In this document: positions 8,514 to 24,986 of the stretch, in pieces | How the letters are laid out: every line of letters begins with the position of its first letter | Numbering within the stretch: the first letter of the stretch is position 1 | Assembly (NCBI RefSeq): GCF_014206975.1 | Contig: NZ_JACHOU010000017.1 | Coordinates: 1-64,000 of the forward strand | Length of the DNA: 64,000 nucleotides | DNA from: Aminobacter aganoensis | GTDB lineage: Bacteria > Pseudomonadota > Alphaproteobacteria > Rhizobiales > Rhizobiaceae | Reading direction: 5' to 3' | Position numbers and translations under genes: made by a program | Notes under the pieces: model-generated | Databases searched by the model: none | Seen by the model: only the letters and a program-made list of their open reading frames with translations | What the model was told of the DNA's origin: nothing

Positions 8514-8541
8514 GCAATCACCCCCCTAAGGAATGAAAGTT

Positions 8542-9276: not shown

Positions 9277-9307
9277 ACATCCGACAATCCGAACAGGGAG
9301 AACTATC

Positions 9308-10132: not shown

Positions 10133-10146
10133 GAAAGGCTTCACCG

Positions 10147-10815
10147 ATGTACATTCTCAAGGATATGCCCGAGCAGGTGCCGCCGGCCGATCTCGATCTG
10201 CTTTCCAACGTCGAGACGGCGACCGTCGGTCACTGGCGGCTGTTCGGCTTCATGGACCGGGGCATACAGCCGCTTCTTCCGAAGCGGCGGGTCGTCGGCA
10301 CGGCCGTGACGCTCGCCATCGCAGGCTCGGACTCGACGCTTCTTCATCACGCGACAGGGATGCTGCGCCCAGGCGACATCCTGGTGGTCGATCGGCTTGG
10401 CGACGACAAATATGCCTGTTGGGGCGGCGGGGTTACCGTTGCCGCGAAAGCGGCAGGTGCCGTTGCCGGCATTGTCGACGGGCCATGCACGGACCTGACC
10501 GAGATCGAGGATTCGGATTTTCCGATGTGGTCTCGCGGGCTTTCGCCGATCACCACGCGCCTCTATGACCTCGGTGGAGGGCTGAACATTCCGGTGTCAT
10601 GCGGCGGTGCGGTGGTCATGCCTGGCGACGCCATCCTTGCCGACGAAAGTGGTGTGCTGGTCATCCCGCGCAACGAGGTACGGGCCGTTGCCGAAAAGGC
10701 GCTGGGGATGCAGGAAACCGGCAAGAAGCGCGAGGCGAGCGTGCGCGACAAGGTGCAGAAGCTCGGCGAGATGTCGGGAGCCAGCGCGAAAGTCCTTGCA
10801 AAGGCAGGCGCCTGA
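10147..10815 (+). CDS. RraA-like protein / putative 4-hydroxy-4-methyl-2-oxoglutarate aldolase family
   Basis: 222 residues, full-length for the RraA fold. The family core is visible: a glycine-rich GAVAGIVDGP stretch near 104-113 and the C-terminal GDAILADESGVLVIP block. Active aldolases carry an arginine-aspartate pair after the DG; here the aspartate remains (D116) but the arginine position is T115. The protein may use another carboxylate anchor, act on a neutral substrate, or be non-catalytic. It is the last gene of the importer-aldolase-amidase run; a hairpin follows. A role as RNase E inhibitor is less likely in this setting. Confidence 0.78.
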   Translation: MYILKDMPEQVPPADLDLLSNVETATVGHWRLFGFMDRGIQPLLPKRRVVGTAVTLAIAGSDSTLLHHATGMLRPGDILVVDRLGDDKYACWGGGVTVAAKAAGAVAGIVDGPCTDLTEIEDSDFPMWSRGLSPITTRLYDLGGGLNIPVSCGGAVVMPGDAILADESGVLVIPRNEVRAVAEKALGMQETGKKREASVRDKVQKLGEMSGASAKVLAKAGA

Positions 10816-10841
10816 CATTCCAGGGTTGCATTCGAAACCAA

Positions 10842-10873
10842 TTGGCGGCCAAGCGCTCCGGTTTGGCCGCCAA
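10842..10873 (+). terminator. terminator-like hairpin after the RraA-like gene
   Basis: A perfect 11-bp inverted repeat (TTGGCGGCCAA at 10842-10852, its complement at 10863-10873) surrounds a 10-base loop, 26 bases after the stop codon. The base run after the right arm on the plus strand is A, not T, so intrinsic termination in the forward direction is doubtful. It still marks the probable end of the operon. Confidence 0.45.
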
Positions 10874-11035
10874 AAATGGTGTTCGAGCGCGAATATCCAA
10901 TGGCTTTGATTGCCTCGCCGCAGCCTGGCGCTAGAATGCGGACTTGACTGCGAAACGGCAGCCCGTGCTGTCTCAGATGCTTCGCCGAAATCAGCCGAGG
11001 TCGACAATGAGGGCATTCTGGAGCTTGCAGAGCCA

Positions 11036-11968
11036 GTGAACATCCGTTTCCTGGAGACCGTCATCTGGTTGGCAGAACTGAGAAATTTCCGCATTACCGC
11101 CGAGCGGATGAACATGACGCCGGCTGCCATCTCCAACCGCGTCTCGGCCATGGAGCAGGAGCTTGGATTCAAGATTTTCGAGCGGGATGCCCGCGACGTC
11201 AAACTGACCGAAGAGGGGGCTCACTTCGTTACCGGCGCTCGCGACATCGTCAGTCGGTACAACGCGCTCTTGCAGGATCTGGGACCGAAAGACGAACTCG
11301 AGGGTACGGTGCGGATCGGCGTATTGCCCAGCATGGCGCTGGTCGTGCTGCGCGGCATCATGGAAACGCTGCGCGAACGCTCCCCACGCCTCCGCGTTTC
11401 GGTTTCGACGGATTCCTCCTCCATCCTCCTGCAGCGTCTCGAGAACCGCGAACTTGATATCATCCTGGGATTTCCGGGGCCGAACATCTCGAAGATGAAC
11501 GTGTCCGATCTTTGCGATCTCAGCATGTACTGGGTGTCGTCCCCCGCCTTGCTGGAAGGCGCGCCAAATCAGCCGATCGGCCGCGCCGACCTGCTGCGCT
11601 ATCCGATCATTTCCTATGAGAGAGGAACCTACAATCACGGCAAGCTGCTCGACTATCTTGGGGGCCACGACGCCCAGAGTGCCGTCCTGCACTACTCCAA
11701 CTCGCTGTCGACGACGATCAGCATGATCGCGAATGGGTTGGGCATTGCCGTGCTGCCGCCGATCGTCATCCAGAATGAGCTTCGCAGCGGTGTCTTGCGC
11801 GTGCTTAACGTGCAGCCGGCCTTTCCAGTCACGCGCTACAGCGTCGTCTATCTCGAAGCCGCATCGTCGCGGCTTTGCTCGCTGATCGCTTCCATTTCCC
11901 GGGACGTGGTGGGACATGTCTGCACACTGTATGATCGATCCCTGATCCAGCAGATCGAGGCGTACTGA
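11036..11968 (+). CDS. LysR-family transcriptional regulator
   Basis: From the GTG at 11036 the protein is 311 residues, the usual LysR length. An N-terminal winged helix-turn-helix covers about residues 2-62 (ERMNMTPAAISNRV is the recognition part), followed by the periplasmic-binding-like effector domain. The frame stays open to an ATG at 10910, which would add 42 residues without domain content, so the start is uncertain. It is co-oriented with and downstream of the importer-aldolase cluster and is the best candidate for its regulator; the effector would then be the imported compound or a breakdown product. Confidence 0.82.
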   Translation: MNIRFLETVIWLAELRNFRITAERMNMTPAAISNRVSAMEQELGFKIFERDARDVKLTEEGAHFVTGARDIVSRYNALLQDLGPKDELEGTVRIGVLPSMALVVLRGIMETLRERSPRLRVSVSTDSSSILLQRLENRELDIILGFPGPNISKMNVSDLCDLSMYWVSSPALLEGAPNQPIGRADLLRYPIISYERGTYNHGKLLDYLGGHDAQSAVLHYSNSLSTTISMIANGLGIAVLPPIVIQNELRSGVLRVLNVQPAFPVTRYSVVYLEAASSRLCSLIASISRDVVGHVCTLYDRSLIQQIEAY

Positions 11969-12033
11969 GTCATGTGGCGCCAGCGGCTTGCCAGCGTGCG
12001 GTCGCTGGGTTGCCGAGACGGTGCGATGCCCGC

Positions 12034-13164
12034 TCAGCCGGCCGAACGCTGAGCCTCCGCGAGGCTGCGCACCGTGCCGGGCACCACGGGTATCCTCCGA
12101 TGCGTCGAGGCAATCGCGGCAAACGTCAGCGCGAGGCTCTGCAGGTTTCCACGCGCCCCGTTCAACGGCTCGCGCCCGTCCTCGATCGCCGACAGAAGCT
12201 CGCCCATTGTGCCCGCAAAGCCGTCGTTGAACCAACCGCCCGAAAGCGCGGGCCGCGCCGTGCCGGAAGCGGTCGTCAGCTCCACGGCCTGGTTGCCGAG
12301 GTCCGGGCCGACGCTCGACAGGCTGCCCCCGGTGCCGGAGATGTAGGTCCGGTCCTGCGAGCCGAAAGGCGTTGCGCCGTCGAAGCAAAGCGAGGCCTGG
12401 CCGCCCGCGAATTCGACCAGCGCCTGGGCGAGCAGCGGAGGTCTTGCCTCCTGGCCGGTGGCGCGGGCGCGGGTGGCGTAAACCGATGTGGTGCCGTCGC
12501 CGATCAGGCTTGCCAGGAAGTCGAACCAGTGGACGCCGAAATCGTAGAGCACGAGGTCGTCGATCGCTTCGAACGGCGTGCCCTTGATCCAGCCGTGGTT
12601 CCAGTGGATCGAGACGTGGCAGGAGACGAGGTTGCCGATCTGGCCGGTGCGGACCGCCTCGCGCATCCAGGCGAGATGCGGCGCCCAGCGGCCGTTCTGG
12701 TTGACGGCGAGTTTTGCGCCCTTACGGTCGGCGAGGTCGGCGAGACGTTCGCCGGTGTCGAGATCGAGCACATAGGGCTTTTGCGACAGCACGTGCTTGC
12801 TCGCGAGCAGCGCCTTTTCGATCATGCCGGCGCGTTCGGCCGGGTGGGTGGTGATGTCCAAGACCTCGACGTCGTCGCGGGCGAGGACCTCGCCGAGGTC
12901 GTCGGTGATTGCTGCATCGGGGAAGAATTCGTCGCGGCGGTCGGCCGCCTTCGCCAGCGTGCGATTGCAAATGACGGCGACGTCGAAGCCGGCGTTGCGA
13001 TAGGCGTCGAGATGGGCGAACGAAATGCCGCCGGCGCCGACGAGGGCGATGCGCGGGGCATAGGCTTTTGGACGCGGCGGGAGATAGGCGAGGTCAGGTG
13101 CTGCGACCAGCCGGGTCTCGGCGGACTTCAGCGCATAGGCGTCTTCGCTCGGCGTGTCGTTCAT
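12034..13164 (-). CDS. Gfo/Idh/MocA-family NAD(P)-dependent oxidoreductase (second of pair)
   Basis: 376 residues with an N-terminal Rossmann domain (VGAGGIS near residue 33) and the C-terminal alpha/beta domain of sugar and inositol dehydrogenases. The family EKP motif reads QKP here; the lysine is kept. Its ATG overlaps the stop of the upstream dehydrogenase gene by four bases (ATGA), so translation is probably coupled and the two act in one pathway. Members oxidise cyclitols, sugars or their amino derivatives, as MocA does in rhizopine breakdown. It is the last gene of the minus-strand moc-like run. Confidence 0.85.
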   Translation of the reverse strand: MNDTPSEDAYALKSAETRLVAAPDLAYLPPRPKAYAPRIALVGAGGISFAHLDAYRNAGFDVAVICNRTLAKAADRRDEFFPDAAITDDLGEVLARDDVEVLDITTHPAERAGMIEKALLASKHVLSQKPYVLDLDTGERLADLADRKGAKLAVNQNGRWAPHLAWMREAVRTGQIGNLVSCHVSIHWNHGWIKGTPFEAIDDLVLYDFGVHWFDFLASLIGDGTTSVYATRARATGQEARPPLLAQALVEFAGGQASLCFDGATPFGSQDRTYISGTGGSLSSVGPDLGNQAVELTTASGTARPALSGGWFNDGFAGTMGELLSAIEDGREPLNGARGNLQSLALTFAAIASTHRRIPVVPGTVRSLAEAQRSAG

Positions 13165-14237
13165 GGCAGCAGCTCGACAGTGCGCTTGAGCTCGGCGGAA
13201 AGGGCAGCACTGTCGGTGATCTGCTGGCCGATGCGCGACATCTCCGGAGAGAGCGGACCCGTGATAGGCACGCCCTTTGCCAGGCAATCCAGTACATATT
13301 CGACCGGGGCGCGGCGGCCGACGGGTAGGGCATCGACCGGGACCGGGTAGGCTTCGGGGTGGGCGCGGGTCTGCACCGTGACATGCGGTTCGTAGTCGTA
13401 GCTCGAAATCGTGCCGTCGGTGCCCAGGATGACGAAACCGCATTTGGGCTGCGGCTGCAGCGTCCAGGGATCGGTGAAGGTGCCCCAGCGCGTTTCGAAT
13501 TTGGACAGGCCGCTTTTGTAGCGGCAGACGGTGATCGAATGCTGGTCGACCTCGATGCCAGGCGTCTGGTCGATGACGGAGGTGACTTCCAGCGGCTTCT
13601 CGCCGTTGCGGAACCAGGTCGCCAGCGTCACGCCATAACCGAGATAATCGCGCAGGCTGCCGCCGCCCGAGGCCTTCTTGTACCACCAGGACGTGGGTTT
13701 TGCCGCCTCGACCTGTTCCGGCGTCACTTCGACCTTGTCGGCGAGGTGGTAGAGCGGGCCGCGGTTGCCATCGTAATAGTGGACCTCGATGACCTCGCCG
13801 ATGGCGCCTTCGTCGATCAGGCGTTTCGCCGTGTTGTGGCTCGGGTACCAGGCGAGAGGCCAGTTGATCGCCATCTGGCGGCCGGTCGGCTTCATCGCCG
13901 CGATCATGCGGTCGGCGTCGGCGAGCGAGGATGCGAAGGGCTTCTCGACCAGCACATGCACCTTGTGGCGGGCGACACGCTCGACATGGTCGGCATGCTC
14001 GGCGGTCGCGGCGCAGATGATCGCCAGGTCCGGCCTTGTCGCTTCGATACAGACGTCCAGATCGGTGAAGACGCGGTCCGCGGGAATGGAAAAATTGGCG
14101 ATCGCCGCGGCCATGCGCTCGGGGTTGCTGTCATGGATGCCGGCGATCTCGGCATCGGGATGCTGGTGCACCTCGCGCAACAGGTCGCCCATGTGCATGT
14201 GGTCGAAATTGATGCCGGCAACGCGCCATCTGGCCAT
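13161..14237 (-). CDS. Gfo/Idh/MocA-family NAD(P)-dependent oxidoreductase (first of pair)
   Basis: 358 residues. The Rossmann segment is unusual: the usual GxGxxG is replaced by GINFDHMHMGD, a variant seen in some family members. The EKPFA motif with the catalytic-site lysine is present near residue 98, and the C-terminal domain is complete. TTCCCTCC on the plus strand just beyond the start is a strong GGAGGGA ribosome site. It lies downstream of the PanB-like gene and overlaps the second dehydrogenase by four bases. A cyclitol or sugar-acid substrate is likely; an NAD(P) requirement needs testing because of the altered loop. Confidence 0.83.
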   Translation of the reverse strand: MARWRVAGINFDHMHMGDLLREVHQHPDAEIAGIHDSNPERMAAAIANFSIPADRVFTDLDVCIEATRPDLAIICAATAEHADHVERVARHKVHVLVEKPFASSLADADRMIAAMKPTGRQMAINWPLAWYPSHNTAKRLIDEGAIGEVIEVHYYDGNRGPLYHLADKVEVTPEQVEAAKPTSWWYKKASGGGSLRDYLGYGVTLATWFRNGEKPLEVTSVIDQTPGIEVDQHSITVCRYKSGLSKFETRWGTFTDPWTLQPQPKCGFVILGTDGTISSYDYEPHVTVQTRAHPEAYPVPVDALPVGRRAPVEYVLDCLAKGVPITGPLSPEMSRIGQQITDSAALSAELKRTVELLP

Positions 14238-14278
14238 TTTTCCCTCCCTGTTTTCTGCGGTCTTCTCCGAGACCTGAC

Positions 14279-15088
14279 CTAGACCAGCGGCGTCTTTTCC
14301 ATCTCGGCCAGAAACCGATCCTGCTCCGCCGCGTCCATGCGGACAAGGTGGCTGGCCGCAGGGTAGGAGCCGCTCGCAACATCGGCGGAATACTCACGGA
14401 AGGCGGCGATGCGCTCCTGCTGCAGGCGCTGGTACTGCGAGTGAAAGTCGCGATAGACCTTGGAATGGCGCGGGTAGTGGCCGTCGTGCACGCCGAGCAC
14501 GTCGGTGGCGAACAGGTACTGCGCATCACATCCCGCACCTGCGCCCATCGAGATCATCAGCAGGTTGGTGCGTTTCGAAATCGCCTCGGCCACGGCCGGC
14601 GGCACGACCTCGATCTCGGCGGCAAAGGCGCCGGCATCTTCCAGCGCCTTCGTCTGCTGCCAGACCATCATTGCCGAATCGCAGGTCTTGCCGACGGCCT
14701 TGAAACCGCCGGTCCAGGTGCGGCGCGACGGGATCAACCCGACATGGCCGACGACGGGGATGCCCTCGTCGCGCAGGCGGCGGACAATGCCAAGGCTGGC
14801 GCCGCAATAGACGGCGTTGGCGCCCAGCTTGAGCAAGCGGAAGGCGATGCGAAGATAGTCTTCCTCGGTGATGTAGGCGCCGGGCTCGAGGCCGCCGACG
14901 ACGAAGGGATTGGGGCAGACGGTGCGGAAGCCTTCGAGCGACAGCACCTCGGGCGGCACCGACAGCATGTCGATGCCGGCAGCGTTGGCGGCCGACGCCT
15001 CGTCGAGCGACTCGACCCTGAGCTTGGTAAGCTGGCGCTTGCCCTTGAGCGCGAGCAGGTCGGCGACGGTTGGCTGGGAGGATTGCAT
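14279..15088 (-). CDS. divergent PanB-like (ketopantoate hydroxymethyltransferase superfamily) protein
   Basis: 269 residues, the length of PanB, with the same beta/alpha barrel landmarks: GHVGL at the place of the PanB GHLGL histidine, GGFKAVGK, an IEVVP segment holding the catalytic glutamate, and the GAGAGCD ligand loop. By eye alignment with E. coli PanB, the three magnesium ligands are all gone: Asp45 aligns with Pro, Asp84 with Gly and Glu114 with Gly. A ketopantoate-forming role is therefore unlikely. It lies inside the moc-like run between a dehydrogenase and the Rieske ferredoxin. ATG 15088 has AAGAG at better spacing than ATG 15094. Confidence 0.75.
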   Translation of the reverse strand: MQSSQPTVADLLALKGKRQLTKLRVESLDEASAANAAGIDMLSVPPEVLSLEGFRTVCPNPFVVGGLEPGAYITEEDYLRIAFRLLKLGANAVYCGASLGIVRRLRDEGIPVVGHVGLIPSRRTWTGGFKAVGKTCDSAMMVWQQTKALEDAGAFAAEIEVVPPAVAEAISKRTNLLMISMGAGAGCDAQYLFATDVLGVHDGHYPRHSKVYRDFHSQYQRLQQERIAAFREYSADVASGSYPAASHLVRMDAAEQDRFLAEMEKTPLV

Positions 15089-15141
15089 GTTCATCTCTTG
15101 GCTGGCGATCGGGTGGCTGGAGATCGGGCTTGCTTGGGCGA

Positions 15142-15459
15142 TCAGGCGAGGCGGATCAGCACGCGGCCGGCCTCGACCTTGACCGGATAGGTGGCGATGT
15201 CGACGCAGACGGGTGCGCCCTTGGCCTTGCCCGTGGTGAAGTCGAAGCGGCCATTGTGCTTGGGGCATTCGATGATGGTGCCCATCACCAGCCCGCCGGA
15301 GAGATGTACCTTCTCATGCGTGCACAGGCCGTCGGTGGCGAAGAAGCGGTCGTCCTCGGTGCGGTAGAGGGCGAAGGTGCGGCCTTCGTGATCGAAGCGG
15401 ATCACGTCGTCCTGGTCGATGTCGTCCGTATCGCAGGCGTCGAACCATTGTTCGGGCAT
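15142..15459 (-). CDS. Rieske [2Fe-2S] ferredoxin, MocE-like
   Basis: 105 residues, the size of a stand-alone Rieske ferredoxin. The cluster ligands are C46/H48 (CTH) and C65/H68 (CPKH), 16 residues apart. It sits 16 bases after the desaturase-type gene, matching the mocD-mocE order of rhizopine catabolism in Sinorhizobium, where the ferredoxin feeds electrons to the MocD oxygenase. No ferredoxin reductase (mocF-like) gene is in this window, so that partner must be elsewhere. Confidence 0.88.
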   Translation of the reverse strand: MPEQWFDACDTDDIDQDDVIRFDHEGRTFALYRTEDDRFFATDGLCTHEKVHLSGGLVMGTIIECPKHNGRFDFTTGKAKGAPVCVDIATYPVKVEAGRVLIRLA

Positions 15460-15475
15460 GGTAGTCTCCGACGGC

Positions 15476-16555
15476 CTATTCGGCCGGGTTGATGATGGCG
15501 CCGTGGTTGTAGGGCACCGGCGTCTTGCCGTCGGGCAGATGCCTGACGGCGTGATAGGCGGGTTCGCGCAGCTGGCGCAGGATGGTCGGGATGATCTCGC
15601 GATAGGCGGCGATGGTGCTGGGATAGGGCTCGGGGCAGTCGTCCTTGATCGCCTGATGCAGCCTCGGCAGCGCGTGATAGGGCACCATGGGGAACATGTG
15701 GTGCTCCACATGGTAATTCATGTTCCAGTACAGGAACCGGAACAGCGGGTTCATGTAGATGGTGCGGGTGTTGAGGCGGTGGTCGAGCACGTCCTCGGCC
15801 AGGCCTGCGTGCTGGGTCAGGCCGAAATAGATGGTCATGAAGCCGCCGTAGAGGCTGGGCAGGCCGACCAGCATGGCGGGCAGGATGCTGCCCATCCAGA
15901 AACAGGCGGCAACGACGGCGGCAAAGATCGCGAGATAGATGCGCGCCACGACATAGACCTTCCAGCGCTCCATCTCGGGAATGAAGGTGGCCTCATCAGG
16001 CTTCAGCCGGCCGGCGGCGTGGATGAACAGCGACTTCAGCGTCGTCACGCTGCTCTTCAGGGCGAAGATGTTGAGCAACAGGGCTGCGACGTCGGGCGGA
16101 CGGGGCACGGCGATCTCGGGGTCGCGGCCGACGATGATGGTATCGGTGTGATGGCGGGTGTGGCTCCAGCGCCAGACCGTCGGCTCGCGCAGGATCATGA
16201 AGCTGGCGACGTAATAGAGCACGTCATTCATCCAGCGCGTCTTGAAGGCGGTCCCGTGGCCGGCCTCGTGCCAGCGGCTGTCGCTCGACGAGCCGTAGAG
16301 CACGCCATAGACGAGGAAGAAGGGGACGGCCCACAAACTGCCCCAGAAATAGATGCCGCCGGCGGCGGAGAGGACGAGCGCTGCTATCCAGATGGCGGTG
16401 TCGCGCAGGGCAGGTCCGTCGCTGCGCTTCATCAGTTCCTTCAGCTGCTTGCGCTCAATGGGGCAGGAATACCATTCGGCGGCGGCGATGCCGTTGGCCT
16501 CGGCGAGCGCGGCGTCGCGGCCGATCAGGCTGTAGTCTCTCGGTGTCGGCGTCAT
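15476..16555 (-). CDS. membrane fatty-acid-desaturase-fold oxygenase, MocD-like
   Basis: 359 residues, four or more membrane helices and the three histidine boxes of non-haem di-iron membrane oxygenases: HEAGH at 96-100, HTRHH at 132-136 and HVEHH at 282-286. With the adjoining Rieske ferredoxin it forms a two-part oxygenase. In rhizopine degraders MocD/MocE remove the O-methyl group of 3-O-methyl-scyllo-inosamine, giving formaldehyde; a similar demethylation or hydroxylation is inferred here. It is the first gene of the minus-strand run, divergent from the LacI gene, and its upstream region carries the shared TCATTTTGA motif. Confidence 0.85.
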   Translation of the reverse strand: MTPTPRDYSLIGRDAALAEANGIAAAEWYSCPIERKQLKELMKRSDGPALRDTAIWIAALVLSAAGGIYFWGSLWAVPFFLVYGVLYGSSSDSRWHEAGHGTAFKTRWMNDVLYYVASFMILREPTVWRWSHTRHHTDTIIVGRDPEIAVPRPPDVAALLLNIFALKSSVTTLKSLFIHAAGRLKPDEATFIPEMERWKVYVVARIYLAIFAAVVAACFWMGSILPAMLVGLPSLYGGFMTIYFGLTQHAGLAEDVLDHRLNTRTIYMNPLFRFLYWNMNYHVEHHMFPMVPYHALPRLHQAIKDDCPEPYPSTIAAYREIIPTILRQLREPAYHAVRHLPDGKTPVPYNHGAIINPAE

Positions 16556-16579
16556 GGGCAGGGCATTTCAGGTTGCAAG

Positions 16580-16603
16580 CATCATAATGATGTTTCATTT
16601 TGA
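16580..16603. promoter_or_regulatory. candidate LacI-family operator, oxygenase side
   Basis: A perfect CATCAT-A-ATGATG palindrome (16580-16592) adjoins a TCATTTTGA motif (16595-16603). The pair is 25-48 bases ahead of the desaturase-type gene. The 9-base motif recurs ahead of the LacI gene and twice ahead of the binding-protein gene. Confidence 0.55.
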
Positions 16604-16710
16604 TGCTATCGGGAGGAATTGCACGGCGTCAAGCCTTGGTGCAGGCAAATGCCAGTCGGGTCAGGTGAGGAACCCACGCTTATGCACTCAATTCGACGCC
16701 TTTCATGCAA

Positions 16711-16731
16711 AAAGCATCATTTTGATATCAT
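16711..16731. promoter_or_regulatory. candidate LacI-family operator, regulator side
   Basis: TCATTTTGA at 16717-16725, followed by TATCATC. It lies about 75 bases ahead of the GTG of the LacI-type regulator and within the divergent control region, so it could serve autoregulation. Confidence 0.5.
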
Positions 16732-16797
16732 CGTGGCGTTGACCGGCCGAAATGGCCGCCATAGTTTGCGCCTGTTGCAATGCCGGTGAGGGGTTCC

Positions 16798-17814
16798 GTG
16801 GCCAGTTCGCGACCGAAGATGGATGAAATCGCGCGGCTGGCCGGCGTCTCGAAGGCGACCGTCGACCGGGTGATGAACAATCGTGCCGGGGTGCAGGACC
16901 ACACCCGCAAGCATGTGATGGCGATTGCCGCCAACCTGGCCGGCGAGCCGGTGCCATCGGCGTCCGATACGGTTTGCCTCGATTTCGTGCTGCCCGGCGG
17001 CAGCAATGCGTTCATGGCCGATCTGGTCAGCCAGATCGAGCGGCGGGCGGAACTGCGTGGCGATGTCGACGTCGTCATCCATCGTGTCGCCGGCGTCGAC
17101 CCGGAGCAGACGGCAGCCGCGCTGGGCGGGCTGCGGGCCAATTGCCAGGGCGTCGGGCTGATCGGGCTGGACAGTCCGTCTGTGCGCGAGGCGGTGCGGC
17201 GGCTGATTGCGTCAGGCGTTCCCGTGCTGACGCTGGTGTCCGACATCAGCCATGTCGGGCGGATGAACTATGTCGGCATCGACAACCGCGCGGCGGGCCG
17301 CCTGGCCGGCTACCTGATCGGCCGCTTCCTGCCCGGCGCTTCCGGCAAGGTGGCGCTGCTGGCCGGTGCACTTGCCTATCGCGGCCACGAGGAGCGCGAG
17401 ATGGGCTTTCGCCACGTGCTGTCGGAGAGCTTTCCGAAGCTCGACGTGGTGGCCGTGCGCGAGGTGCACGAGGACCCCGACAGGGCGCATGACGAGGTGC
17501 GGGCGCTGCTTGCGGAGCACGACGACCTGCTTGCCATCTACTGCATCGGCGCCGGCCAGGACGGCGTGGCGCGGGCGCTGACGGAGACGGGTCGCGACAA
17601 ATCGGTGATCTTCATCGGCCATGACCTGACCGACCAGACACGGCAATATCTGCTGAGCGGCGTGATGGATGCAGCGATCGACCAGAATGCCCAGGTCGAG
17701 GCGCGCGAGGCGATCGACCGGCTGGTGCGGGCGGTGCGCGACGAGCCGAACATTCCGACGACGACCATCCGCATCCAGTCGGTGTTCCGGGAGAACATCC
17801 CGAGCGAAGTCTGA
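16798..17814 (+). CDS. LacI-family transcriptional regulator
   Basis: From GTG 16798 the protein has 338 residues. A LacI helix-turn-helix (EIARLAGVSKATVDRVMNN) covers about 10-28, followed by a periplasmic-binding-type effector domain similar to ribose- and inositol-binding proteins. GTG 16798 is preferred because GAGGGG stands five bases ahead; ATG 16780 has no ribosome site. The gene lies between the divergent oxygenase run and the importer genes. With the TCATTTTGA sites on both sides it is the likely repressor of the whole cluster, relieved by the imported cyclitol-like ligand. Confidence 0.87.
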   Translation: MASSRPKMDEIARLAGVSKATVDRVMNNRAGVQDHTRKHVMAIAANLAGEPVPSASDTVCLDFVLPGGSNAFMADLVSQIERRAELRGDVDVVIHRVAGVDPEQTAAALGGLRANCQGVGLIGLDSPSVREAVRRLIASGVPVLTLVSDISHVGRMNYVGIDNRAAGRLAGYLIGRFLPGASGKVALLAGALAYRGHEEREMGFRHVLSESFPKLDVVAVREVHEDPDRAHDEVRALLAEHDDLLAIYCIGAGQDGVARALTETGRDKSVIFIGHDLTDQTRQYLLSGVMDAAIDQNAQVEAREAIDRLVRAVRDEPNIPTTTIRIQSVFRENIPSEV

Positions 17815-17863
17815 GCGCAAGACGCCGATCGGGGCGCAATCTCAAGGCCATAGGATTTTCCAG

Positions 17864-18931
17864 ATGGACATGATCTCGGCCGCGGGCATTTCGGTTCGCT
17901 TCAACCGCGAGGGCGGGGTGGTCGACGACGTGGCGATCGAGGCTGGCGGCCGGACGATCCGGCCGCTGCATCGCGCCCTCTGGCTGGAGAGCGGCGAGAC
18001 GCTGCCCGACAGCGTGGCGCCGGTGGAAAGGCGGTTGGCCGGCGATTTCTTCTGCGCGCCTTTTGCCCAAAGCGAAGCAGGCGTGCCGATCCATGGCTGG
18101 CCGGCCAATGGCGACTGGGAAGGCGGCGAACAGGCGGCCACGACCGGCGGGCGCGTCAGCGCGGTCTACAGGCTGAAGCAGCAGGTCGCGGGCGCCCGGC
18201 TCGAAAAAACGATTGCCCTTAGGGCGGGCGAGCCGGTGGTCTACCAGACCCATGTCTTCACGGGCGGGACGAGCAGGCTGCCGATCGCGCATCATGCGAT
18301 GATCCGGGTGCCCGGTGGAGCGCGTCTCAGCTTTTCGCCGAAGACCGGTGGGCGGACCACGGCTGCCCCGCCCGAGACGGACCCCGCGCGCGGGCGCTCG
18401 ATCCTGGCCTATCCGCAATCCATCGCGGATCTCGCTGCCGTCCGCCGCAAGGACGGGGCGATGGTCGATGTCAGTCGTTATCCGTTCGACCGCGGACATG
18501 AGGACATCGTGGTGCTGTCGGAGCAGCCGGGGCGCACCGTCGGCTGGTCGGCGGCACTGGCCGACGCCGACGGGTTCCTGTTCTTTGCGCTGAAGGATGC
18601 CTTGGTGCTGCCGCAGACTGTGCTGTGGATGAGCAATGGCGGGCGCAGCTATGCACCCTGGAACAGCCGTCATATCGCGGTGCTGGGCATCGAGGAAGCC
18701 GCAACCGGCATCCACCTGCTGTCAGGCGAAGACATGCCTGACGGTGTCGCCACCGACCTCCAACTCGGTGCCGGGCGCACGGCGATTCGCTATGCCTTCG
18801 GTGCCGTCGTGCCGCCCAAGGGCTGGAGCGAGGTCGCCGACATCGCGATCTCAGGCGATGCGCTGATCCTCGAAGATCGCAGCGGCGAGCGCTTGTCGCT
18901 GCCATTCGATGGCGGCTTCTTCGCCGGCTGA
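17864..18931 (+). CDS. DUF4432 family protein, aldose-epimerase-like fold
   Basis: 355 residues with the all-beta sandwich pattern of the galactose mutarotase superfamily, most like DUF4432 proteins. Conserved histidines (AHHAMIRVPGG and NSRHIAVLGIE segments) could form the active site. No signal peptide is present, so it acts in the cytosol. It follows the LacI gene by 49 bases and precedes the importer genes. Anomer or epimer interconversion of the imported sugar-like substrate is the simplest role but unproven. ATG 17864 has AGGA upstream; the longer frame overlaps the LacI gene. Confidence 0.75.
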   Translation: MDMISAAGISVRFNREGGVVDDVAIEAGGRTIRPLHRALWLESGETLPDSVAPVERRLAGDFFCAPFAQSEAGVPIHGWPANGDWEGGEQAATTGGRVSAVYRLKQQVAGARLEKTIALRAGEPVVYQTHVFTGGTSRLPIAHHAMIRVPGGARLSFSPKTGGRTTAAPPETDPARGRSILAYPQSIADLAAVRRKDGAMVDVSRYPFDRGHEDIVVLSEQPGRTVGWSAALADADGFLFFALKDALVLPQTVLWMSNGGRSYAPWNSRHIAVLGIEEAATGIHLLSGEDMPDGVATDLQLGAGRTAIRYAFGAVVPPKGWSEVADIAISGDALILEDRSGERLSLPFDGGFFAG

Positions 18932-19100
18932 ACCCCATCATTCGATCCTATTCGGCGATGACCGTGCCTCAAAATGAGGCGTGATTGCGCATTCGCGCGC
19001 GGTTTGCCTGGGCGCAAGTGGGGTTTCTCGCCGCTCGTCGCCAATTCGCGGGACTGGTGGGATTCGCGCTTGACTCGCATCTGCCGTTACGCCACTTTTC

Positions 19101-19140
19101 GAGCATCAAAATGATCCTGAAAAAACATCATTTTGAGCAT
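19101..19140. promoter_or_regulatory. paired candidate LacI-family operators ahead of importer
   Basis: TCAAAATGA (19106-19114) and its inverse TCATTTTGA (19128-19136) form an inverted pair whose centres are 22 bases apart, about two DNA turns. GAGCAT-type flanks extend the similarity. The pair lies in the 353-bp gap 18932-19284 ahead of the binding-protein gene; nothing else in that gap was recognised. Confidence 0.6.
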
Positions 19141-19284
19141 TTGCCGTGCGGGAGGATTTGCACGGTGATTGGAGGGCCAATCCATCGACGATAGCGCGCG
19201 CGTCCGGTTGCCGGGCGTCGCCCTGCTTACGCCGGATTGAAAAGCGGAGCGGGGCATCCCGCCCGGATGAGGAGGAGAACAACC

Positions 19285-20232
19285 GTGCTGAAAAGGACTA
19301 TAGCCATCGTTTCGGCGGCCCTGGTGGCGACCAGCCTGGGGCTGGCCACGACCGCCTATGCGCAGGCCAAGAAGACGTATTACTGGGTGTCGCATGGCTC
19401 GCCGGCCGATCCGGTTTGGACCTATTTCCTGGCTGGCGCCAAGCAATGGGCCGACGACACCGGCAACACCGTCAACACGTCGTTCCATAATGGTGACGTG
19501 CCGGCGCACCAGGAGGCCATTCGCGCCGCGATCGCTGCCAAGGCATCCGGCATCGTGACCTCGAGCCCGGATCCGGGCAGCCTGGTCAAGGTGGCCGAGG
19601 AGGCCCGCGCCGCGGGCATTCCGATCATCAACATGAACACGCCTGATCCTTCCGCCAACTTCAACGCCTATGTCGGCGGCAACAACGTCGCCTTCGGGCG
19701 CGGCTGGGCGCAGTACCTGGTCGACAAGAAGCTGGTGAAGGAAGGCGATTTCGTCTGGATGCCGGTCGAGGTTCCCGGCGCCACCTACGGCGTGCAGGAA
19801 GAAGAAGGCATCGCCAGCGTCTTCAAGCCGCTCAACATCACCTGGGAAGTCACCGACGCGACGCTCGACCAGGCGGAGATCATCACCCGCATGGCCGACT
19901 ACCTGACCGCCAACAAGGCCAAGGTAAAGGCGATCATCGGCCTCGGCGACCTCGTCACCGGCTCGATCAAGCGTGTCTTCGACCAGGCCGGCGTCAAGCC
20001 GGGTGAAATCCCGGTCGTCGGCTGGGGCAATTCGCGCGACACCACCCAGGAGGTGCTGGAAGGCTATGTCAACGCCGCCCAGTGGCAGGACCCGCAAGCG
20101 ACCAGCTACATGGCGCTGTCGATGGCGGCGATGGCCGCCAGCAAGATCCCGCCCGGCTTCGACATCATCGTCGGCTCGCTCTATGAAAAAGACCGGGCGC
20201 AGCTCTACGACGACATCCTGGCCGGCAAATAA
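19285..20232 (+). CDS. sugar ABC importer substrate-binding protein, ribose/rhizopine (MocB) type
   Basis: 315 residues from GTG 19285, which follows GAGGAGGAG at ideal spacing; it begins LKRTIAIV and has a clean signal peptide ending AYA-QA. The mature part is a periplasmic binding protein of the family that includes RbsB and MocB. An ATG at 19267 would overlap the ribosome site. It lies behind the paired operator and ahead of a permease and ATPase gene, giving a complete importer of ribose type. Ligand likely a sugar, cyclitol or amino-cyclitol. Confidence 0.87.
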   Translation: MLKRTIAIVSAALVATSLGLATTAYAQAKKTYYWVSHGSPADPVWTYFLAGAKQWADDTGNTVNTSFHNGDVPAHQEAIRAAIAAKASGIVTSSPDPGSLVKVAEEARAAGIPIINMNTPDPSANFNAYVGGNNVAFGRGWAQYLVDKKLVKEGDFVWMPVEVPGATYGVQEEEGIASVFKPLNITWEVTDATLDQAEIITRMADYLTANKAKVKAIIGLGDLVTGSIKRVFDQAGVKPGEIPVVGWGNSRDTTQEVLEGYVNAAQWQDPQATSYMALSMAAMAASKIPPGFDIIVGSLYEKDRAQLYDDILAGK

Positions 20233-20243
20233 GCCTGCCAAAG

Positions 20244-20270
20244 CCCCGGCCTGGACATTCCGGGCCGGGG
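20244..20270 (+). other. intercistronic stem-loop after binding-protein gene
   Basis: A 12-bp stem with one wobble (arms 20244-20255 and 20259-20270) closes a CAT loop, eleven bases after the stop codon. No T run follows. It probably stabilises the binding-protein message relative to the permease part. Confidence 0.6.
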
Positions 20271-20407
20271 AGCCTCCGCCGGCACCGTTCGATCTTCGAT
20301 GCAATGGCATCGCTGCCGGTTCGGTTTCATGCTGCCTAGTGGGTGCGCATCCAGCACCGTCGCAGCGTGGCCACCCACTGACGACCAACGTCTCTCACGG
20401 ATCAGTC

Positions 20408-21394
20408 ATGGACAATCGATCACTCGTGCAGCGCTTCATCGCGAAGCCTGAATTCGGACCGTTGGTCCTGCTCATCCTGGAAATCGCGATCTTCTGGTCG
20501 ATCAATCCGGACTTCCTGTCGCCGCTGAACATTTCCAACACGCTTGCCTTCACGGTCGAACTCGGCCTCATCGCGCTGGCCATGACGCTGTTGATGACCT
20601 CGGGCGAATTCGACCTGTCGGTCGGCTCGGTGTTCGGGCTGTCGGCGGTGGTGATGTGGACGGTGTTCAACACCGGCATCGCGCCGCTGCCCGTGGCCTT
20701 CCTGATCGCCATCGGCCTTGCGATGCTGATCGGCTTCGTCAACGGCTGGTTCGTCACCCGGCTCGCCATCCCGTCGTTCCTGGTGACGCTCGGCATGCTT
20801 TTGATCGCGCGCGGCTCGGCGCTCTACATCACCGACGGATTTCCGCAGCGGACCTGGAACGCCGAGGATCAATGGCTGGCGCAGCTTCTGGTCGGCGACT
20901 TCTACGTCGGCGGCTTCCGCGTCTACATGTCCCTGCTGTGGTTTGCCCTGTTTGCCTTCCTTGCGCATTATCTGTTGACCCAGACCAAGGCCGGCAACTG
21001 GATCCAGGCCTCGGGCGGCAACCCCAACGCGGCGCGGGCGCGCGGCGTCAACGTCCGGCGCACCAAGGTGGCGCTGTTCATGCTGTCGTCGGCGATGGCG
21101 GCGTTTGCCGGCATCATCAGCTCAATCCGCACCTCGGCCGCCAACCCCAACAGCGGCACCGGCTACGAGCTCGAGATCATCGCCATGGTGGTCATCGGCG
21201 GCACGGTGCTGACGGGCGGGCGCGGCACGATCATCGGGACGGTGCTCGGCATCTTCATCCTTCGCATCATGCGCAATGGCATCGTCATGGTCGGCGTGCC
21301 CGGCCTTGCCTACAACATCTTCATCGGCGCGATCATCCTCGGCATGATGGCGCTGCATTCCTGGCTCGAACGCCGTCACAATGCGGGGACCTGA
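20408..21394 (+). CDS. sugar ABC importer permease, RbsC type
   Basis: 328 residues with eight to ten hydrophobic segments and the RbsC-family signatures TSGEFDLSVGS (about residues 63-73) and GGTVLTGGRGT (about 264-274). It lies 175 bases after the binding-protein gene and three bases before the ATPase gene. Ribosome site is weak (CACGGA). Forms the membrane channel, presumably as a homodimer. Confidence 0.87.
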   Translation: MDNRSLVQRFIAKPEFGPLVLLILEIAIFWSINPDFLSPLNISNTLAFTVELGLIALAMTLLMTSGEFDLSVGSVFGLSAVVMWTVFNTGIAPLPVAFLIAIGLAMLIGFVNGWFVTRLAIPSFLVTLGMLLIARGSALYITDGFPQRTWNAEDQWLAQLLVGDFYVGGFRVYMSLLWFALFAFLAHYLLTQTKAGNWIQASGGNPNAARARGVNVRRTKVALFMLSSAMAAFAGIISSIRTSAANPNSGTGYELEIIAMVVIGGTVLTGGRGTIIGTVLGIFILRIMRNGIVMVGVPGLAYNIFIGAIILGMMALHSWLERRHNAGT

Positions 21395-21397
21395 GCG

Positions 21398-22171
21398 ATG
21401 ACCCAAGAACTCGTCCGGATGCAGAACATCAACAAGTTCTACGGCCGCATCCATGCGCTTCGCGACGTGTCGCTGACGGTCAACACGCATGAGGTGGTGG
21501 GCCTGCTCGGCGACAATGGTGCTGGCAAGTCGACGCTGATCAAGGTGCTGTCGGGGGCGGTGCCGATGACCAGCGGCGAGATCTTCGTCAAGGGCAAGGA
21601 GGTGCAGATGAGAAGCACCACCGACGCCATCGAAAACGGCATCGAGACCATCTACCAGGATTCGGCGCTGGTGCCGCAGCTGTCGATCGCGCGCAACCTG
21701 TTTCTCGGCCGCGAACCGGTCAAGGGGCCGGCGCTGTTCAACCGGCTCGACCACGAGATGATGAACGAAGTGGCTGGCACGCTGCTCAAGCGCGTCGGCA
21801 TCACCAAGAACATACCGCCGACCACGCCGATCGGGGCGCTGTCGGGCGGCGAGCGCCAGGCGGTGGCGATCGCGCGCGCCATGCATTTCGACAGCAACCT
21901 GATCATCCTCGACGAGCCAACCAACAATCTCGGCGTCGCCGAGACGCAAGGGGTGTTGCGCTTCGTGCGCGAGGTGCGCGACACCGGCCACTCCTGCATC
22001 TTCATCGCCCACAATATCCACCATGTCTTCCAGGTGGTGGACCGGATCGTTGTGATGCGCGGCGGGCAGGTGGTGGCCGACAACATCGACCCCAAGCAAT
22101 CGACCATCGAGGAGGTCGAGCGGGTGATAACAGGCGAGCACCTGATCGAGGCGCTCGGTCTCGAGCACTGA
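21398..22171 (+). CDS. sugar ABC importer ATPase, single-domain RbsA-like
   Basis: 257 residues with Walker A GDNGAGKS at 38-45, signature LSGGE at 148-152 and Walker B LIILDEP at 168-174. Ribose-type ATPases normally carry two fused nucleotide-binding domains (about 500 residues); this one has a single domain, as in several rhizobial cyclitol and fructose importers, so it should work as a homodimer. It begins three bases after the permease stop. Confidence 0.87.
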   Translation: MTQELVRMQNINKFYGRIHALRDVSLTVNTHEVVGLLGDNGAGKSTLIKVLSGAVPMTSGEIFVKGKEVQMRSTTDAIENGIETIYQDSALVPQLSIARNLFLGREPVKGPALFNRLDHEMMNEVAGTLLKRVGITKNIPPTTPIGALSGGERQAVAIARAMHFDSNLIILDEPTNNLGVAETQGVLRFVREVRDTGHSCIFIAHNIHHVFQVVDRIVVMRGGQVVADNIDPKQSTIEEVERVITGEHLIEALGLEH

Positions 22172-22201
22172 GGGCGGGGGTAAAACCGAGGAGAGCAAAG
22201 C

Positions 22202-23233
22202 ATGCCAGATCACAACAAGCCGCTCGTCCTCTCCGCTCCCCGGCCGCGCACGTTGGACCTGATTTTTACGCCCGAGGCTTTGGCTGGGCTGCGAGCCGAG
22301 AACGAGGTGATCGAGGTCGAGCCCGAGGAGATTGCCGCGCTTGCCCCCGACATTCTCGGGCGCGTGCGCTATCTCATCGGCCAGCCGGCCTTGTCGCTTC
22401 AGACGCTGGAGGCGATGGTCTCGCTGCGCTGCATCTTCAATGTCGAGGGCAACCTGCTCGACAACATGCCCTACGAGCACCTCTTCGGGCGCGGCGTTCA
22501 TGTGGTGACGACCAGCCAGGTGTTCGCCGAGCCGGTGGCCGAGATCGGTCTCGCCCTGGCGCTCGACCTTGCCCGCGGCATCACCGACGCGGACCTCGCC
22601 TTCCGCGAGGGGCGCGAGCTCTGGGGCGCCGAGGGCAATGCCTCGGCGCGGCTGCTGTCTGGCGCCGACATCGGCTTCATCGGCTTCGGCGATCTCGGCA
22701 AGGCGCTGAACCGGCTGCTCGCAGGGTTCCGCGCTTGTGTCAAAGCCTTCGACCCGTGGCTGCCGCCATCGGTGCTCCGGGAGAGCGGTGTCGAACCAGC
22801 GACGCTCGACGAGGTGCTTTCGGGTAGCGACGTCGTCTTCGTGGTGGCCTCGGTGACCAGCGAAAACCAGGGTTTTCTCGACGCGGGCTCCTTCGCCCGC
22901 ATGCGCCAAGGCGCGGCGCTGATCCTGCTCAGCCGCGCCGGCGTCGTCGATTTCCCCGACCTGATCGACGCCGTGCGCAGCGGCCACATCGTGGCTGCCA
23001 GCGACGTGTTCCCGGAAGAGCCGCTGGCGCTGGATCATCCGGTGCGCAGACTGCCCGGCTTCCTGCGCTCGGCCCACCGGGCCGGCGCGCTCGACATTGC
23101 CTTCAAGCGCATGGGCGACATGGTGCTGGAGGACATGGCCCTGATGGACCGCGGCCTTCCGCCGATGCGCTGCAAGCGGGCCGAACGCGAGACGGTATCG
23201 CGCATGCGATCGAAACCGGTCGAGCGGAACTAG
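22202..23233 (+). CDS. D-isomer-specific 2-hydroxyacid dehydrogenase family protein
   Basis: 343 residues. The NAD-binding motif GFGDLG is near residues 161-166. The catalytic set of the family is present: Arg in LLSRAGV, Glu in DVFPEEP and His in RSAHRAG. The last 40 residues extend past the usual end and are basic. AGGAGAGCAAAGC precedes the ATG. It closes the importer operon of the moc-like cluster, so it may reduce or oxidise a hydroxy-acid intermediate late in the route. Its exact substrate is not readable from sequence. Confidence 0.8.
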   Translation: MPDHNKPLVLSAPRPRTLDLIFTPEALAGLRAENEVIEVEPEEIAALAPDILGRVRYLIGQPALSLQTLEAMVSLRCIFNVEGNLLDNMPYEHLFGRGVHVVTTSQVFAEPVAEIGLALALDLARGITDADLAFREGRELWGAEGNASARLLSGADIGFIGFGDLGKALNRLLAGFRACVKAFDPWLPPSVLRESGVEPATLDEVLSGSDVVFVVASVTSENQGFLDAGSFARMRQGAALILLSRAGVVDFPDLIDAVRSGHIVAASDVFPEEPLALDHPVRRLPGFLRSAHRAGALDIAFKRMGDMVLEDMALMDRGLPPMRCKRAERETVSRMRSKPVERN

Positions 23234-23411
23234 ATGTTCGATACATCTGCAGTGTCGCGGGCGCTGGCGGACAAGTCGTTCTGGCATTGGGTTGCATGCC
23301 TTGAGGAGAACTCAAGAGAAAATCCACCCGTCTTCTTGGCCGGCAGATGAACGACTTTCACTCCATTGCTAGTCCTGTAAATCACCCTTGACTTTGACAT
23401 GCCCACGAATA

Positions 23412-23600
23412 GGGTGCGCGCGTCATGGTCTTCCGCCGACGAGGTGGAAGCTAAGAGGGAATCCGGTGTGAAACCGGAGCTGACCCGCAACTGTAAGCGG
23501 TGAGCCGTTCGCCCAAATGTCACTGGCAATATTGCCGGGAAGACGGGCGGCATGGGCTGTGATCCGTGAGCCAGGAGACCTGCCTGACAGAGTGAGATTC
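23412..23600 (+). ncRNA. cobalamin riboswitch
   Basis: The conserved core is plain: GGGAA followed by CCGGTGTGAAACCGGAGC, then GACCCGCAACTGTAAGCGG ending at 23500, then a CACTG element at 23521 and the B12 box GAGCCAGGAGACCTGCCT at 23568-23585. The upstream GGTGGAAGC arm at 23443-23451 completes the layout. Adenosyl- or methylcobalamin binding should lower expression of the importer operon beginning at 23875. The exact ends are approximate. Confidence 0.93.
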
Positions 23601-23808
23601 CGTGGTCGGGGTGTGCCACAGGAGTGACGGTTCCATTTCGAAGGCCCTGTTGCGGCTTTCGTCGGGCCCGCATTTCCGCACCTCGTCCCCGGCAGGCAGA
23701 GGTTGGCGCGGCGATGTCGGGAAGATTGGTTTCCCCATGTTCGAAGAGCTTCGGCGGGCGCCTTTGGCGTCGTCCGGCGTGCTGCGCCTGTTTGCCTGTG
23801 TCGTCTGA

Positions 23809-23840
23809 CCGAGGCCTGCTCGGACATGTGCAGGCCTCGG
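23809..23840 (+). promoter_or_regulatory. hairpin in riboswitch leader, possible expression platform
   Basis: A perfect 11-bp stem (CCGAGGCCTGC at 23809-23819 with its complement at 23830-23840) and a 10-base loop lie between the riboswitch core and the start codon at 23875. No T run follows, so Rho-dependent or translational control is more likely than intrinsic termination. The link to the riboswitch is inferred from position. Confidence 0.5.
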
Positions 23841-23874
23841 CACGCCCCGCACCGCATTTGCGCATGGAGACATC

Positions 23875-24924
23875 ATGAAAATCACTCAGCTAGCCCTGTG
23901 GCTCGGACTTGCCCTGGCTTCGGCCATTGGCTTGGCACCGGCGGCCGCCGAAACCTTCACCGACGATGCCGGCCGCAAGGTCGAGCTGGAACTGCCGATC
24001 AAGCGGGCGGTGATCTTCAACCGCTATGCGGTTGAGTTCGCCCGTGCCATCGGGGCCATCGACAAGGTCGTCGGCGTCGATGCGAGCACGATGCGGGACC
24101 CGACCTACTGGCCGCAGTTCAAGGACAGCGACATCGTCGGCCAGGGCCAGACCCAGCCCAACTACGAAGCGATCGTGGCGCTCAAGCCCGACGTGGTGAT
24201 CATCCCGCGCAATGGCGTCTACGAGGAGGCGGCGCGACAGCTCGAAGCCTTCGGCATTCCGGTTCTGGTCGTCACCGCCTGGGACACGCTTCAGCACGTC
24301 GAGAACGTGACGCTGTTCGGCAAGCTGTTCGACAGCACGGAAAAGGCCGATGCGCTCAACGCCTATTACACCCGCTACATGGACCTGCTGGCCGAGCGCC
24401 TGAAGGACGTCGAGCGCAAGAAGGTGTACCTCGAAGAGGTGCGCGACCTGGTGACGGTTACGCCGGGTTCGGGCTGGCACGACATGATCGAGGCCGGCGG
24501 CGGCATCAACGTCTTCGGCGACATCGACATCAAGAAGCAGCCCTCCTCGCGCGGCAACGAGAACAGCTTCACCGTCGATCCCGAGGAGATCATCGCGCGT
24601 AAGCCGGATCTGGTGATCAAGCTGCAGCCCGGCTCCTACCAGACGATCCCGGAAGCGAAGTTCGCCGACAGCTGGAAGGCGATCGTCGCACGCGAGGAAA
24701 TTTCGGGCGCGCCGGTCGGTGCGGGGGGCAATGTGCGCTTGATCAATTACTATCTGGCAGGCGGCTCGTCCAAGGTGACGGGCGCGCTGCAGGTCGCCAA
24801 GTGGCTCTATCCCGACCGCTTCGCCGACATCGATCCCGAGGCGGCGATGAAGGAATGGATCGAGATCTACCAAGGCCTGCCGTTCCAGGGCGGCATGACC
24901 TACCAGGGCAGCGCCTCCAACTGA
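23875..24924 (+). CDS. ABC importer substrate-binding protein, BtuF/FepB type (corrinoid candidate)
   Basis: 349 residues with a signal peptide ending AAAA-ET near residue 24-25 and a class III (TroA-like) binding fold joined by a long helix. The phrase ALKPDVVIIPRN is typical of the family. Position directly under a cobalamin riboswitch argues for corrinoid or cobinamide capture, although the family also binds siderophores. GGAGACATC is the ribosome site. First gene of a four-gene operon. Confidence 0.83.
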   Translation: MKITQLALWLGLALASAIGLAPAAAETFTDDAGRKVELELPIKRAVIFNRYAVEFARAIGAIDKVVGVDASTMRDPTYWPQFKDSDIVGQGQTQPNYEAIVALKPDVVIIPRNGVYEEAARQLEAFGIPVLVVTAWDTLQHVENVTLFGKLFDSTEKADALNAYYTRYMDLLAERLKDVERKKVYLEEVRDLVTVTPGSGWHDMIEAGGGINVFGDIDIKKQPSSRGNENSFTVDPEEIIARKPDLVIKLQPGSYQTIPEAKFADSWKAIVAREEISGAPVGAGGNVRLINYYLAGGSSKVTGALQVAKWLYPDRFADIDPEAAMKEWIEIYQGLPFQGGMTYQGSASN

Positions 24925-24930
24925 CGAACC

Positions 24931-24963
24931 GGCACGCCGCCGCCGGCAAGGCCGCGGCGTGCC
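24931..24963 (+). other. intercistronic stem-loop after binding-protein gene
   Basis: Perfect 10-bp stem (24931-24940 with 24954-24963) and a 13-base GC-rich loop, seven bases after the stop of the binding-protein gene. No T run. Same placement as the hairpins in the two other importer operons of the window. Confidence 0.6.
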
Positions 24964-24986
24964 TCCCCTAATCGGAGGCTTCGACC

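Follow-up and report, generated by a model that had tools for sequence, protein, structure and literature searches.

The closest described relatives of the gene cluster considered here are the mocDEF genes of rhizopine catabolism in Sinorhizobium meliloti L5-30 and Rhizobium leguminosarum (Bahar 1998, as cited in an excerpt of PMC10107442); FixV and Msi119 homologues stand beside mocDEF, and an inositol derivative has been proposed as the substrate (excerpt of PMC3538637). Our cluster lies in the first 64,000 nucleotides (the window, taken at its full length) of contig NZ_JACHOU010000017.1 of Aminobacter aganoensis, a genome of 5.76 Mb. Like rhizopine mocDEF, it starts with a MocD-type oxygenase and a MocE-family Rieske ferredoxin, and sugar/inositol-type ATP-binding cassette (ABC) genes and a Gfo/Idh/MocA dehydrogenase are present as well. 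It differs from the rhizopine moc genes in that a MocB equivalog is absent, the operon lacks mocF, and a LacI regulator takes the place of MocR; it adds a second MocA-type enzyme, a gene of galactose-mutarotase fold, and panBL, coding for a PanB-fold protein without the PanB metal site. Our main result is a general tie of panBL to oxygenases which, judged by sequence, are of the demethylating kind. As to the cluster itself, we lean towards a catabolic operon under LacI control with an O-methylated sugar as its substrate, in which oxidative O-demethylation would take place and panBL would be the partner handling the one-carbon (C1) unit.

Protein families in the window were assigned with Pfam and NCBIfam profile scans. 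The minus-strand run at 12034-16555 has the order oxygenase, Rieske ferredoxin, panBL, mocA2, mocA1; it looks like an operon because of the short gaps (16 bases between oxygenase and Rieske, 47 between Rieske and panBL, 41 between panBL and mocA2) and the four-base overlap of mocA2 with mocA1, the final gene. The oxygenase (15476..16555) is a MocD-type membrane di-iron protein with HEAGH, HTRHH and HVEHH boxes (PF00487, FA_desaturase, 142 bits); the ferredoxin (15142..15459), with CTH and CPKH motifs, reaches 167.6 bits with TIGR02377 (cut-off 136.15). panBL occupies 14279..15094 and matches PF02548 (Pantoate_transf, 138.8 bits against a cut-off of 28.7), its N-terminal part being outside the match. 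The FA_desaturase match could be taken as a sign of a lipid-desaturating or lipid-hydroxylating enzyme in a cluster mixing unrelated functions, an alternative the earlier note had named; we consider it highly improbable, as the oxygenase scores 49.6 with the DesB lipid-desaturase equivalog NF052549 (cut-off 500) and is linked to a MocE Rieske, sugar-type dehydrogenases and LacI in all 10 loci of this type described below.

A profile scan of genome contigs with a 16-sequence panBL alignment gave at least 590 pattern matches, at least 549 of them confirmed; the best 80 of the latter were kept as loci, and counts per 80 refer to these. Within the stretch examined, 75/80 loci have the oxygenase, 76/80 a MocE-type Rieske and 71/80 a MocF-type reductase; a FixV-like LacI is found in 66/80 and an Msi119-like isomerase in 55/80. 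The commonest arrangement is FixV-like LacI, MocD, MocE, MocF, panBL; on the far side of panBL, iolG is located in L102, L104, L110, L127 and L129. The loci without oxygenase are L060, L067, L074, L110 and L115, and the stretches of L067 and L110 start shortly upstream of panBL.

Co-occurrence was counted in two sets of genomes with thresholds picked after the lists were seen. In a draw of 297 genomes from the order (oxygenase at E<=1e-80, panBL at E<=1e-70) the oxygenase was present in 41 and panBL in 26: both in 24, oxygenase only in 17, panBL only in 2, neither in 254 (Fisher p 3.2e-22). G893, counted as one of the two panBL-only genomes, does have an oxygenase gene next to panBL, truncated where the contig ends (L275). 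Among 101 relatives (oxygenase at E<=1e-100, panBL at E<=1e-70) the corresponding figures were 16, 4, 1 and 80 (p 4.9e-14); the panBL count leaves aside a broken fragment (G036) and proteins of 37% (G021) and 35% (G028) identity, and of the four genomes with oxygenase only, two are incomplete (G008, 81%; G052, 76% complete).

The neighbourhood of panBL was counted at 50 of 57 order-wide places. G365:C72 and the fragment G778:C1 were not included; G898, G844 and G095:C156 were omitted as ordinary or near-ordinary PanB (ordinary PanB matched better; reused as controls), and G822 and G881 were omitted without inspection, on the strength of what their congeners G898 and G844 have. An oxygenase (of four families) or a MocE-type Rieske stands within 1.5 kb of panBL in 44/50 loci and within 10 kb in 46/50; for the oxygenase alone the counts are 26/50 within 1.5 kb, 38/50 within 3 kb and 45/50 within 10 kb. 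None of 14 ordinary panB loci has an oxygenase or MocE-type Rieske nearby (p 8e-10 at 1.5 kb), although for 11 of the 14 the flanks reach no further than about 1.5 kb. Sorted by type, the oxygenases up to 10 kb from the 50 panBL genes were FA_desaturase in 34 (that of L263 being just 36% identical), FA_hydroxylase in 11, PhyH in one, Rieske ring-hydroxylating in one, and none was present in five; two of the 11 FA_hydroxylase-type loci also have an FA_desaturase. Pfam confirmed FA_hydroxylase in 11/11 loci, PhyH in L264 as well as in two additional loci, L052 and L053, and, for L266, Ring_hydroxyl_A, to which glycine betaine monooxygenase is the nearest NCBIfam model (123 against a cut-off of 670). 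Among the titles listed from the open-access PubMed Central (PMC) literature, none concerned a link between a PanB-like protein and these oxygenases; in excerpt, PMC5320631 covers only serine hydroxymethyltransferase, and PMC4814558 PanB and folate damage.

Some of these loci have features of their own. At 9252-11242 of L266 panBL and the Rieske ring-hydroxylating oxygenase overlap by four bases, and N-demethylation may be covered too. A distant panBL accompanies a PhyH 2-oxoglutarate oxygenase, RbsABC, ribokinase and RbsD in L052 (9549-16310), L053 (9110-16646) and L264, possibly for demethylation of a methyl ribose. In L263 (5958-10520) a MocD-like gene (36%), MocE, a DddP-like M24 protein (298 against a cut-off of 600) and panBL follow one another, and upstream of them is an aldolase-family gene. 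MocD-like genes (38-41%) accompany panBL (40-41%) in small genomes of the class (1.4-1.6 Mb; L196, L198-L200), and G456 has five MocD-like genes.

What panBL might do was considered from its fold and residues. The predicted model (predicted local distance difference test, pLDDT, 92.5) had PanB as all 28 best Foldseek matches (template modelling score, TM, 0.6-0.7), and hhalign against six ordinary PanB gave 252 columns, 27% identity and a probability of 99.95%; with the PanB equivalog TIGR00222, panBL scores 103.4, below the cut-off of 207.55. Compared with the PanB structures 1m3u, 1oy0 and 3vav, the fold is the same and His136 and Glu181 are shared; the difference is that Asp45, Asp84, Lys112 and Glu114 are replaced. 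In E. coli numbering, we take Asp45 and Asp84 to be the Mg ligands, with Lys112. In 47 aligned panBL sequences the Asp84 column (Gly 43, Ala 4) and the Lys112 column (Tyr 45, Ile 2) are changed in 47/47; at Asp45, where the alignment is less sure, we saw P 35, A 5, Y 3, D 2, T 1 and E 1, and at Glu114 Ala, Ser, Gly or Pro. On the other side, H117 and E162 of panBL (PanB His136 and Glu181), presumably in the part of the site facing the hydroxymethyl group, are kept in 47/47. As the metal aspartates and Lys112 are lost, panBL should not be a ketopantoate hydroxymethyltransferase; the ordinary panB of the source genome is located elsewhere (G000:C4). The Mg/keto-acid half of the site is thus gone and the hydroxymethyl-facing half kept, which fits C1 handling without proving it. 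The earlier note had made the PanB-like protein a candidate C1 partner: the comparative data strengthen that idea, again short of proof, while a normal Mg-dependent PanB reaction has become unlikely.

One could speculate further that panBL is a new metal-independent enzyme family derived from PanB, which would take the nascent hydroxymethyl hemiacetal, or formaldehyde, from O- (perhaps N-) demethylases belonging to four or more oxygenase families and pass the carbon on to tetrahydrofolate or a similar carrier; we put this forward tentatively. If true, demethylation with panBL need not release free formaldehyde. Another possibility, to be held just as loosely, is that panBL is a phosphoenolpyruvate-mutase-fold lyase or hydrolase acting on the carbon skeleton (e.g. 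in a retro-aldol reaction) and merely follows these oxygenases. The loss of metal and keto-acid residues, making the PanB reaction itself unlikely, would suit such an enzyme, as would the isocitrate-lyase-type enzymes that Foldseek also gave, at far weaker E; however, the sugar enzymes beside panBL vary widely (iol genes, ribokinase/RbsD, DddP-like, Gfo only), the oxygenase or Rieske being the constant element, and panBL can go missing alone. The latter is seen in L201, where Rieske and mocA2 are just 51 bases apart, both dehydrogenases are retained and panBL is cleanly absent; its genome, G776, has no panBL at E<=1e-30. Such a loss is as expected for an auxiliary enzyme.

Speaking for the demethylation reading, one genus has a formaldehyde dehydrogenase next to MocE. 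G075 has the oxygenase, MocE and two MocF-like genes; a class III formaldehyde dehydrogenase (TIGR02818, 595 against a cut-off of 544), the sole one over cut-off in the genome, lies between an ABC ATPase and MocE. Each of the 5 genomes of the genus has a single TIGR02818 gene over cut-off, directly next to a MocE-type Rieske in 5/5, and the panBL search gave one match per genome, no stronger than those to ordinary PanB (E 1e-16 to 1e-20). The oxygenase is in the dehydrogenase-MocE cluster in L179 and L255 and absent from the stretches examined of L256 and L257; that of L258 is too short for a verdict. The idea that formaldehyde dehydrogenase generally replaces panBL was rejected: it was seen in that role only in the genus of G075, and TIGR02818 is common anyway. 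Other panBL-less clusters inspected (e.g. L204-L210, L217, L222) had no such replacement, and none of the 50 panBL loci had a formaldehyde dehydrogenase within 10 kb.

Several observations speak against panBL as the C1 partner of demethylating oxygenases, or reduce the weight of the association. At E<=1e-70, 17 of the 41 oxygenase-bearing genomes of the order draw are without panBL (among them G885 has a 37% panBL relative beside the oxygenase, and G778 a fragment); conversely, at 4/50 panBL loci neither an oxygenase nor a MocE Rieske lies within 10 kb, the oxygenase of L034 being 16 kb off. The p values overstate the case, because the loci are akin and not phylogenetically independent. Among the panBL-less clusters inspected, a formaldehyde dehydrogenase is in place only in G075 and G924; in the stretches examined, the dehydrogenase-MocE pairs of G925 and G926 have no MocD-type oxygenase. 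TIGR02818 is found in 79/101 relatives, the source genome included, and in 14/17 of those with panBL; since it is common, also together with panBL, panBL is not needed merely for formaldehyde disposal. Finally, the loss of the Mg site makes a PanB-like folate chemistry of panBL look doubtful.

The cluster type of the window, marked by the mocA2-mocA1 pair, was found at 10 distinct loci among those examined: the window, L035, L036, L037, L055, L056, L057, L201, L202 and L203 (L035 is on the same contig as L054, and L037 is the same as L058; each was counted once). In 10/10 the genes follow each other as mutarotase-fold gene, LacI, oxygenase, Rieske, mocA2 and mocA1, which puts the gene set far beyond chance; panBL is present in 9/10 and a MocF-type reductase in 3/10. 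In Aminobacter niigataensis DSM 7050 (L054) panBL is 94% identical and the whole cluster is syntenic. The genes named in the earlier note are all there, with open frames at the places given for them.

The mutarotase-fold gene (17864..18931, plus strand) bears on the substrate. For its product neither Pfam nor NCBIfam gave a match at E 1e-3; the AlphaFold model (pLDDT 82.7) gave aldose 1-epimerases/mutarotases 3nre, 3dcd and 4bze as best Foldseek matches, with 12-13% identity (for 3nre E 7.3e-10, TM 0.57/0.67, root-mean-square deviation 5.6, 13% identity). By predicted fold it belongs to the aldose 1-epimerase (galactose mutarotase) superfamily, so that an earlier DUF4432 label can stand at superfamily level at best. 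A mutarotase is sensible for a reducing sugar, not for inositol. As the gene is present in 10/10 loci and would be pointless for inositol, we prefer, with moderate confidence, a methylated reducing sugar (aldose) over a cyclitol as the substrate; of the 'cyclitol or sugar' proposed previously, the second half is favoured and the first has become less likely.

The two dehydrogenases divide on this point. Both mocA1 (12034..13164, minus strand; PF01408, 54.3 bits) and mocA2 (13161..14237, minus strand; PF01408, 71.6 bits) stay far below the cut-off of 355 of the IolG equivalog TIGR04380 (66.2 and 56.6, respectively). The nearest solved chain is inositol 2-dehydrogenase 4hkt for mocA1 (E 1.4e-16), while mocA2 is nearest to glucose-fructose and aldose-aldose oxidoreductases, both matches being weak. 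A rival reading, rather unlikely in our view, makes an O-methyl or amino cyclitol (rhizopine, pinitol, ononitol) the substrate of the cluster, which is probably the case for its mocDEF relatives, and gives the mutarotase-fold protein another role. Apart from the mocA1 match, this would agree with the iolSBP-like ABC genes in 35/80 and iolG-like genes in 18/80 (some weak) of the best 80 panBL loci, with the panBL copy that ends an iolG-C-D-E-B operon in the source genome, and with the 1.5-2.1-fold rise of R. mesoamericanum mocDEF homologues on Mimosa exudate, whose top component was pinitol (excerpt of PMC5789663; its authors read the rise as rhizopine catabolism). However, no iol gene, Msi119-like isomerase or inositol-type binding protein was recognised in the window cluster, and both the mutarotase-fold gene in all 10 distinct loci and mocA2 itself point to an aldose. 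Among the matches listed from the open-access PMC literature, none was recognised as bacterial pinitol demethylation. With the commoner mocDEF-panBL operons, the likelier substrate is an O-methyl inositol.

With a methylated aldose as the preferred substrate, the pathway could run as follows; the methyl ether, the order of steps and the reaction of panBL are what we infer. The importer would bring the methyl sugar in. The MocD-type oxygenase, with electrons from the MocE Rieske protein and also from a ferredoxin reductase encoded elsewhere, would hydroxylate the O-methyl group to a hemiacetal, from which the C1 unit would leave as formaldehyde or pass to panBL. The freed sugar would be mutarotated by the product of 17864-18931 and then oxidised by the two Gfo/Idh/MocA enzymes.

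The divergent plus-strand run has the order LacI, mutarotase-fold gene, sugar-binding protein, permease, ATPase, hydroxyacid dehydrogenase. It starts with the LacI-family regulator (16780..17814; PF00356 and PF13407, Peripla_BP_4). Two operator-like repeats, for which this role is a presumption, lie between the runs: GCATCATAATGATGTTTCATTTTGATGC (16579..16606), upstream of the oxygenase, is conserved in congeners (unchanged in L035, one change in L036) and mostly preserved in L056; in GCATCATTTTGATATCATC (16714..16732), upstream of lacI, the leading 14 bases (GCATCATTTTGATA) are preserved in L035 and L036, not in L056. The importer consists of a periplasmic sugar-binding protein (19234..20232; PF13407, 135.1 bits), a ribose-type permease (20408..21394; PF02653, BPD_transp_2, 171.8 bits) and an ATPase (21398..22171), recognised by its Walker A and LSGGE signature; a D-2-hydroxyacid dehydrogenase follows (22202..23233; PF02826, 2-Hacid_dh_C, 124.4 bits). 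As the importer differs among loci and the hydroxyacid dehydrogenase is syntenic solely in the congeners L035 and L036 (of 20 loci compared), we place both outside the core. Upstream (8533-11968, plus strand) we saw, by eye, an HpcH/HpaI-type aldolase, a carbon-nitrogen hydrolase, an RraA-like protein and LysR, which, except for one weak LysR match, were not seen with the cluster in L034-L053; downstream (23875-26860), also by eye, an iron/cobalamin-type ABC binding protein, permease and ATPase.

Relation to rhizopine breakdown can now be stated. The sugar-binding protein scores 64.2 with NF052284, the equivalog of the rhizopine-binding protein MocB (cut-off 420), and no protein of the source genome is over that cut-off (best E 6.7e-22). 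There is no mocF in the window operon, and no open reading frame resembling mocR or mocC was recognised by eye in 9000-27000, no specific model having been run. A rhizopine locus proper was ruled out on the first two of these grounds, and they bear out the earlier description of the cluster as related to rhizopine breakdown yet different; that mocF is missing is true locally, with a 60% homologue on contig C6 of the source genome. The same contig (G000:C6) carries an iolG-iolC-iolD-iolE-iolB-panBL run with a second panBL (L034), and Msi119-FixV-MocD-MocE-MocF (L182) 16 kb away. A MocB-type binding protein over cut-off is present in 6/247 genomes of the family, and the stretches of 13-20 kb round these six have neither MocD oxygenase nor panBL; in one of the genomes, G202, a MocD-type gene is on the same contig, about 36 kb away.

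Another point of comparison is pSymB of S. meliloti strain ml59 (L259), where LacI, MocD, MocE, a flavin adenine dinucleotide reductase and panBL follow in one direction; by synteny this is probably the operon SM_b20817-20820 of strain 1021 (tags named in an excerpt of PMC11387232). Where they show annotation, L259 and further plasmid records of Sinorhizobium call MocD a fatty acid desaturase and panBL a 3-methyl-2-oxobutanoate hydroxymethyltransferase; both labels are probably misleading. As this mocDEF-panBL operon is present on pSymB, the role of panBL is testable, and with it a function for a large family (at least 549 confirmed relatives) labelled as a pantothenate enzyme in plasmid records; it would suggest a way in which soil and plant-associated bacteria treat the C1 unit when they feed on methylated sugars and inositols of the kind present in legume exudates. 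LacI, oxygenase, MocE and panBL are common to the pSymB operon and the window; the former has the reductase, and, unlike the window, is without the mocA2-mocA1 pair and the mutarotase-fold gene. What is new here, as far as sequence comparison carries, is the link of panBL to the oxygenases, and a cluster that is real, conserved, and kin to rhizopine breakdown yet distinct from it.

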